From: a virus
Length of the DNA: 56,011 bases
Reading direction: 5' to 3' (one strand)
IMG/VR virus record: IMGVR_UViG_3300050821_002508
Span: 1 to 56,011 of that record
Below are positions 8,737 through 12,148 of the stretch, piece by piece. The number at the start of each line of letters is the position of its first letter. The first letter of the stretch is position 1. A model generated the notes under the pieces. The model was not told where the DNA came from, made no database searches, and saw nothing but the letters and a program-made list of their open reading frames with translations. The translations under genes and the position numbers were made by a program.

Positions 8737-9225
8737 TTAGTTTGTGTGTCGAAGTGTATCGGAATGAGCGAGAAGTGAATCGAGGAGCGTAGCTATTCCG
8801 AATTGCACGTCAACGTCATCTCCGGAATAGGTTTCGAGTGCTCGTTGCTCTTCGATTGGGTCGATTGTCGGGTCGATCTGGCGTGCAATGTCCCAAGCTT
8901 CCCTTTCCGAGGCGCGAACTGCGTCTCCGGCATTTGGCGTCCATCGGTTTCCCATTGGTTTCGATCTGGGATCATTCATGGATGCGGGAGTCTTGGCCAG
9001 ATACCCGACAACGTGGCCGAGTTCATGCGCTAAGCTCGTCCGAAGATTGAGCGATACGTCTGTAACATCTCCGGTCGAAGGAATGATGCTGATCTCAAAC
9101 TTTGGGGTATCAATCCATTGCTTCGTTTGAGGGTCCATCATTTTCCCTTCGTCATGGCTTGTTTTGCTACTGCCGGGCTTTGCGTCCGGGTCAATCGTGA
9201 TTAATACTAAAGCTTGTCGTTTCAT
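8737..9225 (-). CDS. HELGH metallopeptidase-like protein (copy 1)
   Basis: A 162-residue protein with SLAHELGHVVGY (HExxH zincin motif) near residue 68, followed about 45 residues later by SEREAWDIARQI, whose glutamate could be the third zinc ligand as in gluzincins. No signal peptide is present, so it would act in the host cytoplasm. It is the last gene of the early minus operon. A second HELGH protein with the same ligand spacing is encoded directly upstream. Shine-Dalgarno ACAGGAGA precedes the ATG. The target is unknown; modifying host proteins early in infection is a plausible role. Confidence 0.7.
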   Translation of the reverse strand: MKRQALVLITIDPDAKPGSSKTSHDEGKMMDPQTKQWIDTPKFEISIIPSTGDVTDVSLNLRTSLAHELGHVVGYLAKTPASMNDPRSKPMGNRWTPNAGDAVRASEREAWDIARQIDPTIDPIEEQRALETYSGDDVDVQFGIATLLDSLLAHSDTLRHTN

Positions 9226-9253
9226 CTGTTTATCTCCTGTGTGGGAACCATTT

Positions 9254-9305
9254 ACATGCGTTCCGGGATGCGCTCCGAATGTGGAGCGCTACCCGCAAAG
9301 CACAT
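9254..9305 (-). promoter_or_regulatory. Structured RNA element, copy A (repeat hairpin family)
   Basis: On the minus strand TTTGCGGGT and ATCCCGGAA enclose the inner stem AGCGCTCC-ACATTC-GGAGCGC, with ATGTG/CGCAT forming the outer stem. The same scaffold with different stem sequences occurs at 10952-11001 and 11323-11370. It lies between the stop of the upstream gene and the Shine-Dalgarno of the gene at 9225. Confidence 0.65.
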
Positions 9306-9763
9306 TACTTTCCGTTCAAAGCCTCTAGCACGTAAGGGGGAACCACTTCCTGTAACATTTTGTCGTGCCGAGCGTACTCTTTCATCCCGTAGTCGTGCGC
9401 CTTGCTTTTACTTGCTCCGGGAAAAATCATGTCGGCAATTTGCCAAGCTTCCCGTTCGACTGGCACATACAGTTCCCCATCTTCGCGGGTTAACCCAATC
9501 GAATGAAGCTTATCCGCCGTGCGCCATGAGTTTACCTGTATCGGAGTTTGCAGCACATTCGCGGCAAAATGTCCCAGTTCATGCGCGAATATCTGCACAC
9601 GGTTTGATTGCTCTAGTCCCATGCCGTCGCGCGTGCCTTGCGGGCACATACGCAATTCGTATTGACCGGGAGTGCTATCCGTACGCTGTTTTTTGGTGAA
9701 TAGGCCAGTCACGCAATCCTCGTCCGTTTCATACACTTTCAAAGTACCTAACAGTTTTCTCAT
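9305..9763 (-). CDS. HELGH metallopeptidase-like protein (copy 2)
   Basis: A 152-residue protein with IFAHELGHFAANVLQTP (HExxH) near residue 63 and VEREAWQIADMIFPG about 40 residues on, the same pair of motifs as the downstream neighbour. The rest of the sequence is quite different, so the two are distant paralogues or two acquisitions from one family. Shine-Dalgarno ATAGGAG stands nine bases before the ATG. Cytoplasmic; substrate unknown. Confidence 0.7.
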   Translation of the reverse strand: MRKLLGTLKVYETDEDCVTGLFTKKQRTDSTPGQYELRMCPQGTRDGMGLEQSNRVQIFAHELGHFAANVLQTPIQVNSWRTADKLHSIGLTREDGELYVPVEREAWQIADMIFPGASKSKAHDYGMKEYARHDKMLQEVVPPYVLEALNGK

Positions 9764-9785
9764 GGTCGATTCTCCTATGTGTGTT

Positions 9786-9860
9786 ACCCGCCATAGCTTT
9801 AGCGTAGGCGGGTTGACGCCTTAGAGCACGTCCACCAATGCACCTTGAAAGATGCACTGG
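9786..9860 (-). promoter_or_regulatory. Two RNA hairpins before the copy-2 HELGH gene
   Basis: On the minus strand CCAGTGCATC pairs with GGTGCATTGG (9835-9860) using two G-U wobbles that would be mismatches on the other strand, so the RNA is read leftward. A second stem pairs ACCCGCC with GGCGGGT (9786-9813). Both precede the Shine-Dalgarno ATAGGAG. The position matches the repeat hairpin family but the sequence does not. Confidence 0.5.
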
Positions 9861-9869
9861 TAGCGGGTT

Positions 9870-10088
9870 CTAATCCGCGAACGAATCCGCCGCTGCGCCT
9901 GCTAAAGCCTCGGCTATTCGTTCAAATGCCGTGCCAAACGTGATAACCTCGCCTGTAGCGAATAGAACTATCGTCACGGCAAGTATCGAAAGACTCCAGA
10001 CGCCAAATCGAAACATGAATCCCTTGCAGCGCTTGGAGCAATGCTTAATCGGATGCTTCACTGTATTTTCTCCGATCTGAACGGACAT
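9870..10088 (-). CDS. Small membrane protein
   Basis: A 72-residue protein from the ATG at 10088 (MSVQIGEN). After a Lys/Cys/His-rich N-terminal third comes one hydrophobic span (FGVWSLSILAVTIVLFATG) and an Ala-rich tail. The frame is open further upstream to 10214, but that part runs opposite the better-supported gene 10058-10249. No function is recognised. Confidence 0.5.
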   Translation of the reverse strand: MSVQIGENTVKHPIKHCSKRCKGFMFRFGVWSLSILAVTIVLFATGEVITFGTAFERIAEALAGAAADSFAD

Positions 10089-10249
10089 ACCGGACCCGAA
10101 AAACTCCCGTATGTCTCTGTTTGCCATCTCGAAATGCGAGGGGAGAGATAAGCGGCATACCACGCGCTCCAATCGGATGCGGGTAGGTTCGAGGCTTTGT
10201 GTTCCCGTTCGCATTCTTCAAGCAATTGCTTGAGAAACTGTGTCGGCAT
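10058..10249 (-). CDS. Hypothetical early protein
   Basis: A 63-residue protein (MPTQFLKQLLEECEREHK). Support comes from the canonical ATAGGAG ribosome site and the GCAA-tetraloop hairpin at 10269-10280 placed in front of it as in its neighbours. It overlaps the gene on each side. No family is recognised. Confidence 0.6.
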   Translation of the reverse strand: MPTQFLKQLLEECEREHKASNLPASDWSAWYAAYLSPRISRWQTETYGSFSGPVCPFRSEKIQ

Positions 10250-10628
10250 TGTTGTTTTCTCCTATGTTTGGCTTGCGCCATATTCCTTCAATCGTTGCTC
10301 CGTTACTTCCCAGGATTCGGCATTCCACACACTGAACGTCTATTCCATCATTCAGCATGATTTGAGATAATTCCTGTGCAGCCGCTAGCGCCATGTGTTC
10401 GCAGGATATTGCTTCCCATTTCGGTGCTTTGTGTCCGAATCGGGAGTCAAAATATTCCTGTAATCGTTCATTGTTAATGAGGAAACCCTCCGGAGTGAGT
10501 ACCTTGTCCGAGGCTTCAATCCGTACATGGTACTGATACGTCCGCGTCCGCATGGCCGCACATTTATGCGGATTGGGATGCATGGTTGAAGCATGGAATT
10601 TTCCAGCGCGTTCGAGGTTAATGAGCAT
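10218..10628 (-). CDS. Hypothetical protein, faint 6-pyruvoyl-tetrahydropterin synthase (QueD)-like pattern
   Basis: A 136-residue protein. KFHAS near the start, YQYHVRIEA, then LTPEGFLINNERLQEYFDSRFG, CEHMALAAAQ and a late VECRI follow the order of blocks seen in QueD/6-PTPS proteins. The HGH zinc pair of that family is not intact, so zinc binding and pterin chemistry are doubtful. It overlaps the upstream gene by 11 bases. If truly QueD-like it could belong to 7-deazaguanine metabolism, but no other gene of that pathway was seen. I regard this as a weak lead. Confidence 0.4.
   Translation of the reverse strand: MLINLERAGKFHASTMHPNPHKCAAMRTRTYQYHVRIEASDKVLTPEGFLINNERLQEYFDSRFGHKAPKWEAISCEHMALAAAQELSQIMLNDGIDVQCVECRILGSNGATIEGIWRKPNIGENNNADTVSQAIA
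10269..10280 (-). promoter_or_regulatory. GNRA-tetraloop hairpin before ribosome site
   Basis: On the minus strand TGGC-GCAA-GCCA forms a 4-bp stem closed by a GNRA-type loop, four bases upstream of ACATAGGAG, the ribosome site for the gene at 10249. It lies inside the 3' end of the upstream gene. Confidence 0.4.
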
Positions 10629-10806
10629 GTACCTCGCCCGCGTCTATGAGCAATTTCGCCATACGCCCATAGCTTCCTTGAAGATGCCAAGCAAGCCCGG
10701 AATTGACTAGGTTTTGGAACAATTCCACAATTTCTTCGCGTGAAAGTGTCCCGTTTTCATACTGGATGATCTTGTCGGTAACGTCATAATAGGGTTTGCG
10801 TTTCAT
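10618..10806 (-). CDS. Conserved small phage protein (DUF7417-like)
   Basis: A 62-residue protein with the run YDVTDKIIQYENGTLSREEI followed by LFQNLVNSGLAWHLQGSYGR. This pattern is widespread in unrelated phages and is, from memory, catalogued as a domain of unknown function (DUF7417). Its start ATG overlaps the upstream membrane-protein stop (ATGA). The function is unknown; the conservation implies a general early role. Confidence 0.75.
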   Translation of the reverse strand: MKRKPYYDVTDKIIQYENGTLSREEIVELFQNLVNSGLAWHLQGSYGRMAKLLIDAGEVHAH

Positions 10807-10922
10807 TGCTTACCCTCTGCGTCATCGGCTCCGTTATCCTCTTCACCCCATAGCAAGATCGTCAAATACGCTATGGCAGTTGAAAAGATGGAAACCAAAA
10901 ACAAAACTGCAACTGTTACCAT
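10803..10922 (-). CDS. Small single-span membrane protein
   Basis: A 39-residue protein: a hydrophobic span (VTVAVLFLVSIFSTAIAYL and on) followed by an acidic tail (GEEDNGADDAEGKQ). A strong ACATAGGAGG precedes the ATG, and its stop overlaps the next start, so translation is coupled. The likely topology is N-out with an acidic cytoplasmic tail. Function unknown. Confidence 0.7.
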   Translation of the reverse strand: MVTVAVLFLVSIFSTAIAYLTILLWGEEDNGADDAEGKQ

Positions 10923-10951
10923 TCTTTTTTCCTCCTATGTGTTTGGAACTG

Positions 10952-11001
10952 AATGCGTTCCGGGAGGTACTCCGAAAGTGGAGTACGACCCGCAAAGCAT
11001 T
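10952..11001 (-). promoter_or_regulatory. Structured RNA element, copy B
   Basis: On the minus strand an outer stem AATGC/GCATT and flanks TTTGCGGGT / TCCCGGAA enclose GTACTCC-ACTTTC-GGAGTAC. The inner stem differs in sequence from copies A and C but keeps pairing. It sits between the stop at 11000 and ACATAGGAGG of the next gene. Confidence 0.7.
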
Positions 11002-11299
11002 ACTCCCCGAGGGTGTTGTCATCTCCGGGATATTCGTCCACATCCGGCCATTCATCGCTCTGGTAGTCGTCTGGACGATCTGCCGGAACGTCTACAGGCT
11101 TCCAAGGCAGAGGTTCTGTTACCGGGTCAACAATCGGTCCACTTTCATTCTTGAACGCTACCCGCAACCCTCGCCGTAATGCTTCCTGATAGTCGCGTTC
11201 CGGAAATACGGGGCCGCGTGAAAGTACCGATTGCAAGTAATTGATACCCGCAGTGGTCAACGGTTTAATCGAGTCTTGATTCATTACTAGGTCTAGCAT
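11000..11299 (-). CDS. Hypothetical acidic early protein
   Basis: A 99-residue protein from the ATG at 11299 (MLDLVMNQDS), chosen because ACATAGGAGG stands in front of it; the frame itself is open to 11368. The C-terminal third is very acidic and proline-rich (DEWPDVDEYPGDDN). Acidic early proteins sometimes mimic DNA or bind host regulators, but nothing specific is recognised. Confidence 0.65.
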   Translation of the reverse strand: MLDLVMNQDSIKPLTTAGINYLQSVLSRGPVFPERDYQEALRRGLRVAFKNESGPIVDPVTEPLPWKPVDVPADRPDDYQSDEWPDVDEYPGDDNTLGE

Positions 11300-11322
11300 T
11301 GTGTTTCCTCCTATGTGGGAGC

Positions 11323-11370
11323 TAGTGCGCTCCGGAAACCCCTCTAAAGAGGGGAATCCGCAATGCACTA
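11323..11370 (-). promoter_or_regulatory. Structured RNA element, copy C
   Basis: On the minus strand TAGTGC/GCACTA form the outer stem, TTGCGGA pairs with TCCGGA around a conserved G-G mismatch, and CCCCTC-TTTA-GAGGGG forms the inner stem. Relative to copies A and B, a G-C pair has become A-T on both sides. Just downstream, CTCC-CACATA-GGAG could fold the Shine-Dalgarno itself into a hairpin. Confidence 0.7.
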
Positions 11371-11661
11371 CTCGCAGATTGTTGGATCACCACAGTCGAA
11401 GTTATTCGGGTCAAGCGGCGCGCTCTTAGGTGCGCGAGGGTCATTTGAGCGCAACGCGAATTCGACTGCATAGGCAAGGTATCGCGGGTCGTTTTCCTGT
11501 CCGGTTTTCTTGTTGATTCGTTCGATATTCGGGAGAATCAATTCGTTCGTGATACCCAGTACCGCATTTCCATCCGAATGATAGGAAGCGTATTCGCAGA
11601 TTTGAATTGCTCGCGCTATCTCATCCGGAGTCAAAATGTGCTGCAATTTAACCGTTTTCAT
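11368..11661 (-). CDS. Hypothetical early protein (first gene of the leftward operon)
   Basis: A 96-residue protein starting MKTVKLQHILTPDEIARAI. The ATG at 11661 is chosen for its AAAGGAG site; an upstream in-frame ATG at 11691 lies on the promoter. The sequence looks helical in its first half and has CGDP near the end. No family is recognised. It is the first gene after the leftward early promoter and so probably among the first expressed. Confidence 0.65.
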   Translation of the reverse strand: MKTVKLQHILTPDEIARAIQICEYASYHSDGNAVLGITNELILPNIERINKKTGQENDPRYLAYAVEFALRSNDPRAPKSAPLDPNNFDCGDPTICE

Positions 11662-11696
11662 GGCGCTCCTTTGTGGCGGAAATATCCGCATCTCGT

Positions 11697-11725
11697 TAGA
11701 TACTCCTAACAGTGAAAAGTGTCAA
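11697..11725 (-). promoter_or_regulatory. Leftward early promoter
   Basis: On the minus strand TTGACA (11720-11725) is followed after 17 bases by TATCTA (11697-11702). It directly precedes the early operon that starts at 11661. The -35 is a perfect sigma70 match. Confidence 0.7.
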
Positions 11726-11733
11726 GAATAAAG

Positions 11734-11845
11734 TGTAGAATGTTTATCACTTGTGCAATGAAAAGATTACATGGTCCTAGTACCGCTAGATAAGTAATTC
11801 TTACATAGTAGTTGACAGTGTAAACTTTACAGTGTACATTCTACA
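11734..11845. repeat. 10-bp inverted repeat spanning the divergent promoter region
   Basis: TGTAGAATGT at 11734-11743 has its exact reverse complement, ACATTCTACA, at 11836-11845. The right arm overlaps the -10 of the rightward promoter and the left arm lies just upstream of the leftward -35. This suggests a regulator-binding pair, or looping. Confidence 0.55.
11812..11840 (+). promoter_or_regulatory. Rightward early promoter with internal operator dyad
   Basis: TTGACA (11812-11817) is followed after 17 bases by TACATT (11835-11840). Between the boxes lies the perfect dyad TGTAAA-C-TTTACA (11819-11831), a natural place for a repressor. It would drive the long rightward operon. Confidence 0.75.
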
Positions 11846-12148
11846 TGCTCCTATGTGGGAGGGTTGCTTGGGACAGGAAAGTTTTTCTCCGGTACTGGGC
11901 AACCCTTCAAGCTATGGAACGAGGCGTGCATCATCTTCAAACGAGCCGGAAAACGCCAGACTTTCTAAAAAAGTGGGGGTGCTGCGTCGCCCGAAAAACA
12001 AAAAAGTTCACCCCTATGGGCAAAATTGGTTTTCAGGAATTCGGCCAGACCATCCCCGCTGGAAATACTTGAATCGTTTTCGCCGGGGGAGGAATCTAGT
12101 AGGCTAGGTCGGGAATTACACTTTACAATCTACAGAAAAAGGAGCCGT
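11846..12148 (+). other. Structured 5' leader of the rightward operon, no supported gene
   Basis: About 300 bases separate the promoter from the first well-supported start. AGGGTTGC (11860-11867) pairs with GCAACCCT (11899-11906), and a second hairpin GGGGGTG/CACCCC lies near 11976-12018. ACACTTTACA at 12118-12127, which includes most of a TACAAT box, may be a second promoter/operator. Open frames here start on or before the predicted transcript start and lack ribosome sites. It may act in antitermination or translational control. Confidence 0.45.

Follow-up and report, generated by a model that had tools for sequence, protein, structure and literature searches.

In the early region of phage T7, each early-operon junction carries an RNase III site in the form of an imperfect stem of ~20 bp; we know of no conserved competing second hairpin at these sites. 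In attenuators of the erm leader type, overlapping segments form exclusive 1:2, 2:3 and possibly 3:4 helices with the Shine–Dalgarno (SD) sequence in segment 4, and a ribosome on segment 1 switches the fold. Translational coupling by RNA unfolding is an accepted model (f1 VII/IX, MS2 coat/lysis and rpmI–rplT): a ribosome that translates the upstream gene, or terminates on it, unfolds RNA structure that restricts the following start. Each of the known cases concerns one junction with a single inhibitory structure (PMC12548453). Phage start-associated motifs (SAS) with upstream inverted repeats were described in 2011 and have had no function assigned since. For those of the cluster K mycobacteriophages (SAS/ESAS), the authors saw little to support RNA hairpins (PMC3203893), and a later study places promoters within the ESAS (PMC11373665).

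The window analysed here is the complete 56,011-base virus record IMGVR_UViG_3300050821_002508 (positions 1 to 56,011), in which terminase and capsid matches were found using PHROGs. Using BLAST, no near relative of the window was detected among 50,697 named phages, and neither near nor distant BLAST searches of named phages returned a homologue of the element described below. No Rfam 15 family was found in the whole window at the gathering score and none matched positions 9150–11950 at E ≤ 5. No earlier report of such an element was found in the open-access literature.

Two-hairpin elements in the early operon

The elements sit in the minus-strand early operon at 8.7–11.7 kb of the window, which is DNA of a soil phage. 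The three minus-strand hairpins that an earlier note had placed here (w1, w2 and w3) were all located when the sequence was read and folded. Their parts (P1, hairpin at the upstream stop codon; P2, alternative hairpin) and two related junctions are as follows.

9258–9301 (outer stem to 9254–9305), minus strand: w1, P1 core; precedes a 162-aa HELGH-motif protein
9305–9307, minus strand: w1, upstream stop codon
9244–9264, minus strand: w1, P2, GGAAC (9264–9260) with GTTCC (9248–9244)
9232–9245, minus strand: w1, extended SD CCCACACAGGAGAT; ATG at 9225
10955–10998, minus strand: w2, P1 core
11000–11002, minus strand: w2, upstream stop codon TAA
10945–10961, minus strand: w2, P2, GGAAC (10961–10957) with GTTCC (10949–10945)
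10930–10943, minus strand: w2, extended SD AACACATAGGAGGA; ATG at 10922
11323–11370 (core 11327–11366), minus strand: w3, P1 including the upstream stop codon
11368–11370, minus strand: w3, upstream stop codon TAG, inside the stem
11318–11333, minus strand: w3, P2, GGAGC (11333–11329) with GCTCC (11322–11318)
11306–11319, minus strand: w3, extended SD CCCACATAGGAGGA; ATG at 11299
9786–9860, minus strand: w4, a fourth junction of like layout and other sequence, from folding
11676–11689, minus strand: P2-like hairpin GCGGA-UAUU-UCCGC without P1, adjoining the SD of the operon's first gene

The common scaffold that had been proposed (outer stem, G-G mismatch and inner stem) gives the same fold in all three copies. 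From the outside inwards, P1 consists of an outer stem, a 1 × 1 mismatch, UU/AR pairs, the G-G mismatch, CGG(G/A), a 2 × 2 internal loop and an apical stem of 6–7 bp (by folding), making an imperfect stem of 21–23 positions. As the earlier note had it, the apical stems are wholly different in sequence and yet paired in every copy. The folding z-scores are −4.2, −4.6 and −6.3 for w1, w2 and w3, respectively, and no shuffled sequence folds equally well. The exact scaffold pattern has two matches in the window against none expected from shuffles; the third copy departs from it by single bases. Overlap with the upstream stop codon, claimed for each element, holds in full for w3, the stem of which contains the whole codon, whereas in w1 and w2 the codon only borders the outer stem or reaches partly into it. 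The spacing to the SD, put at about 15–20 bases, is 19, 18 and 14 nt, respectively, when measured from the P1 core.

Three features go beyond that note: P2, an extended SD motif and two-hairpin junctions of other sequence. The extended motif, CACATAGGAG, lies between the elements and the next starts and occurs six times in the operon region, five of them preceding genes. The 3′ arm of P1 (segment B; GGARC) is complementary to segment C just 5′ of the SD, and the resulting hairpin P2 competes with the outer part of P1. At w4, a 26-nt hairpin (9835–9860) is followed by the hairpin ACCCGCC/GGCGGGT (9786–9813) and then by ACACATAGGAGAA. At the head of the operon there is neither a preceding gene nor a P1; in most relatives the first gene carries a P2-like hairpin directly 5′ of its SD (window 11676–11689; also L003, L033 and L036, in our locus labels), which suggests that P2 is the expression-competent fold.

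In placement, cluster K SAS/ESAS is the nearest known system, yet it is different. Both repeat an SD motif, with ATAGGAG as its core, ahead of the ATG starts of non-structural genes, and about half of the cluster K motifs have an inverted repeat just upstream, in gaps of >50 bp. The cluster K SAS is a fixed 13-bp sequence, GGGATAGGAGCCC, of which the window sites (CACATAGGAGGA, CACATAGGAGAA and similar) have only the ATAGGAG core in common. The 17-bp imperfect inverted repeat of cluster K has the fixed consensus TGTTGA..TCAACA, and the Pixie repeats, compared directly, are of this type; here, in contrast, the arms are GCNTTGCGG/CCGGARCGC or unrelated to it, covary, and differ between copies of one genome. 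A SigA-like promoter lies within the cluster K repeat (PMC11373665), whereas a promoter-like site was found in none of w1, w2 and w3.

Distribution and covariation of the two hairpins

Relatives were gathered from IMG/VR by pattern scans and protein searches. In the syntenic phages (L003/L113, L014/L115, L030/L114, L033/L117, L036/L118 and L116) the element, or its layout with other sequence, occurs at equivalent gene junctions. Copies were also found in the unrelated contigs L002, L020, L210, L211, L214, L223 and L226; L226 matches the scaffold pattern five times, and further gene gaps there keep the layout with other sequences. Two-hairpin layouts of unrelated sequence include L113:4701 (P2 GATTGGC/GCCAATC) and L226:7941 (GAAGCTC/GAGCTTC). 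Three equivalent junctions (L114:6502, L115:6958 and L116:6476) carry a short form, in which the scaffold ends in CCCGGAGG and segment C is missing; B itself is the SD and is paired within P1. One scan gave 30 pattern matches, most of which were rejected as chance matches lying within genes or lacking stems. The covariance model R1, built from two copies, was weak on divergent high-G+C copies. The genome contigs searched gave no relative of the protein conserved in the operon, and the pattern scan returned no copy with both stop codon and stem.

Of the contigs with the element, L210, L211 and L223 are high in G+C and may be integrative elements of actinomycetes instead of phages. A short match links L210 to Thermobifida phage P1312, a phage encoding an FtsK/SpoIII-like ATPase.

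For P1, the fixed scaffold served to place 18 copies in a gap-free alignment, to which the fold of each copy supplied its five apical base pairs. Pairing was found in 90.1% of cells (64.0% in shuffles), double compensatory changes in 15 of the 18 pairs, and a covariation score of 0.71 against 0.21 ± 0.03 shuffled and at most 0.16 in slid registers. The apical pairs were picked by folding and are therefore biased, but the outer pairs, which were not, also change together: the second from G-C to C-G, and the fourth among G-C, G-U, A-U and C-G. The scaffold itself covaries, from TTGCGG/CCGGAA to TTGCCG/CGGGAA. In scaffold copies the stop codon lies 3–7 nt from the TTG; where this distance is ≤4 nt, the stop-codon bases are paired in P1 in 83% of cells, compared with 59% permuted.

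For P2, the B/C pairs include GGAAC/GTTCC, GGAGC/GCTCC, GGAATGC/GCATTCC, GGGAGTGC/GCATTCCC, GGAACGG/CCGTTCC and others. The covariation score is 0.28 versus 0.15 shuffled and ≤0.10 in slid registers; because the register of C was selected by complementarity, the permutation test matters here. With regions B and C defined automatically and C permuted among elements, B–C complementarity within an element is 13.7, a value reached by none of 5000 permutations (10.8 ± 0.5 permuted). Against dinucleotide shuffles, the P2 tails of 21 operon elements have a mean z of −2.5 (combined p = 7e-14), while those of 22 other elements, a set biased by selection on folding energy, have z = −2.0. In 20 of the 21 operon elements (shuffled mean 4.8, maximum 10), a stable P2 has at least 3 nt in common with outer P1. 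Applied blind to all AYANAGGAG starts of all loci, the P2 test gave 27 of 65 against 14–23 shuffled, with no clear excess because most such loci do not have the element; it was then rerun on defined elements.

The hairpins of w1, w2 and w3 are real and under selection as RNA. P1 and P2 exclude each other, and both helices, 1:2 and 2:3 in attenuator terms, are selected. Selection on RNA structure, as the earlier note argued, is strongly supported by compensatory changes in 18 copies from several phages and by equivalent junctions that keep the architecture despite differing sequence; the lack of further copies or of covariation, on which that reading was to fall, did not materialize.

Proposed switch and alternative explanations

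We propose a bistable junction switch, a model that we rate as evenly poised between right and wrong. Segment A, the stop codon plus GCNUUGCGG, would pair with B (CCGGARCGC) to give P1, and B would pair instead with C (GYUCC, 5′ of the SD) to give P2. Since the 5′ arm of P1 contains or adjoins the stop codon, a ribosome terminating there must open P1; by covering A it would let B pair with C and free the next SD. Without upstream translation A:B would form, and in many copies C would then pair with the SD; in the short copies B itself is the SD. The element would in this way couple translation of consecutive early genes, and probably links or times the production of neighbouring proteins. Computationally, both helices covary, B is common to both and the stop codon is in or beside A. 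In several copies the C strand, left free when P1 forms, is predicted to pair with the SD, so that the logic would be A:B off and B:C on.

In folding calculations, blocking the stop codon plus 10 nt converts P1 to P2 with P of about 0.99 in w1, w3, L114a, L118a, L002 and L020, although about one copy in three favours P2 even with no ribosome present. With the footprint blocked, the modelled SD accessibility of the operon elements rises from 0.45 to 0.54 (p = 0.025; C-shuffled control −0.01), and that of the three short forms from 0.25 to 0.58 on average. The modelled gain is clear only in the short forms and some long ones; many type II copies gain little and some nothing (w2 drops from 0.56 to 0.34), and outside the operon set the gain is not significant. 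The C:SD (3:4) helix is predicted in w1, w2, w3, L114a, L115b, L116c and L020a and is absent in others. The closeness of stop codon and hairpin could be plain genome compaction. The two-hairpin architecture is well supported; given the modest modelled SD gain, the switch mechanism is what we infer from it, and RNA processing with P2 as a stabilizer is a serious rival.

The proposed switch resembles erm-type attenuators in its overlapping exclusive segments and in a ribosome on the first segment that would change the fold; it differs in having no drug-stalled leader peptide, in using the ribosome of the upstream structural gene and in a 3:4 helix that is not general. As in coupling by unfolding, a hairpin arm lies where a ribosome on the upstream gene can reach it, but here a modular two-state unit recurs at many junctions and in unrelated phages.

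The main rival, which we consider possible but rather unlikely, is that P1 is a site for a double-strand RNase of the RNase III type, cleavage freeing B so that P2 protects the new 5′ end beside the SD. The mismatched P1 stems of 21–23 positions at nearly every early-operon junction would suit such an enzyme, and stems of about 20 bp at early gene junctions are a likeness to T7. P2 ends 0–14 nt 5′ of the SD, and a P2-like hairpin without P1 stands at the natural 5′ end of the operon, both as expected of a stabilizer. By itself, however, processing leaves unexplained the pairing of the stop codon in the stem and the short forms with the SD inside P1, and we know of no RNase III requirement that would call for such strong conservation of the scaffold sequence. 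The earlier note had listed processing, stability or translation control, rightly leaving the choice open. The exclusive P2, the stop codon in the stem and the short forms with the SD in the hairpin make the evidence lean to translation control coupled to termination more than to processing.

The invariant G-G mismatch, the near-invariant UUG..GGA and the freely variable apical stem in the 18 copies could instead mark a site at which a phage or host RNA-binding protein reads UUGCGG/CCGGAR and the G-G mismatch and controls the next gene, the apical stem and loop being a cap. We regard this as improbable: junctions in L113, L117 and L226 keep the two-hairpin layout without that sequence, and the need for B to pair with both A and C accounts for much of its sequence.

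That the inverted repeats act as DNA, as operators or promoters, is very improbable. Their position just 5′ of start-associated SD motifs is as in cluster K (PMC3203893), the ESAS of which hold SigA-like promoters (PMC11373665). Against this, the conserved G-G position is not palindromic, no promoter-like hexamers were found inside w1, w2 or w3, and arms of unrelated sequence within one genome fit no single protein specificity; the reading was rejected on this sequence diversity and on the covariation of P1 and P2. That the hairpins, immediately 3′ of stop codons, are simple 3′ ends or insulators stabilizing the upstream message or stopping ribosome drift, with P2 incidental, is hardly credible, as no U-run lies 3′ of the stems of w1, w2 and w3, which do not have the form of rho-independent terminators, and P2 is far above shuffles.

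For a system comparable to the start-associated motifs of other phages, covariation and two exclusive folds now allow a concrete, testable mechanism to be put forward. If the switch is real, phages set the ratios or the order of early proteins by a reusable RNA part tied to ribosome termination, and such a part could find use in synthetic operons.

Neighbouring features of the region

The following features lie in or beside the operon.

11846–11859, minus strand: extra start-associated motif copy CACATAGGAGCA, no gene behind
11812–11840, plus strand: best promoter of the region (predicted), TTGACA-17-TACATT
9305–9763 and 8737–9225, minus strand: two related proteins with HELGH metalloprotease-like motifs
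10618–10806, minus strand: DUF7417 protein (Pfam E 1e-18)

Seen from the opposite strand, the CACATAGGAGCA copy lies just downstream of the TTGACA-17-TACATT promoter, and the predicted divergent transcript would start with the antisense of the ribosome-binding motif of the operon, followed by a strong hairpin. An antisense SAS copy is present in all seven syntenic genomes examined, the window included; most copies match the SAS variant of their own genome (CACAGAGGAG in L113, L117 and L118), and in six of the seven a promoter is predicted 7–19 nt upstream. The divergent leader is a candidate trans antisense RNA. More speculatively, and with considerable doubt, the elements may represent a widespread new class of phage cis-RNA, a termination-sensed two-state switch at most early-operon gaps of unrelated phages and mobile elements of soil bacteria, in which the antisense SD-motif copy of each syntenic genome could allow one RNA to silence all starts in trans.

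The HELGH-motif proteins have no match in Pfam or PHROG, and homologues of one or the other occur at the equivalent place in relatives. The DUF7417 protein is common to many Streptomyces and Rhodococcus phages and soil virus contigs; its gene start in the window has no element. Repeated ACTTTACACT and AGTGTAAAGT motifs lie between divergent promoters (window 11700–11850 and 8620) and are likely to be repressor operators. In Mycobacterium phage Pixie (L272), each half of the ESAS is a small hairpin, TGTTGA..TCAACA, and the halves also pair together; judged from these repeats, ESAS could likewise switch between one long and two short hairpins.
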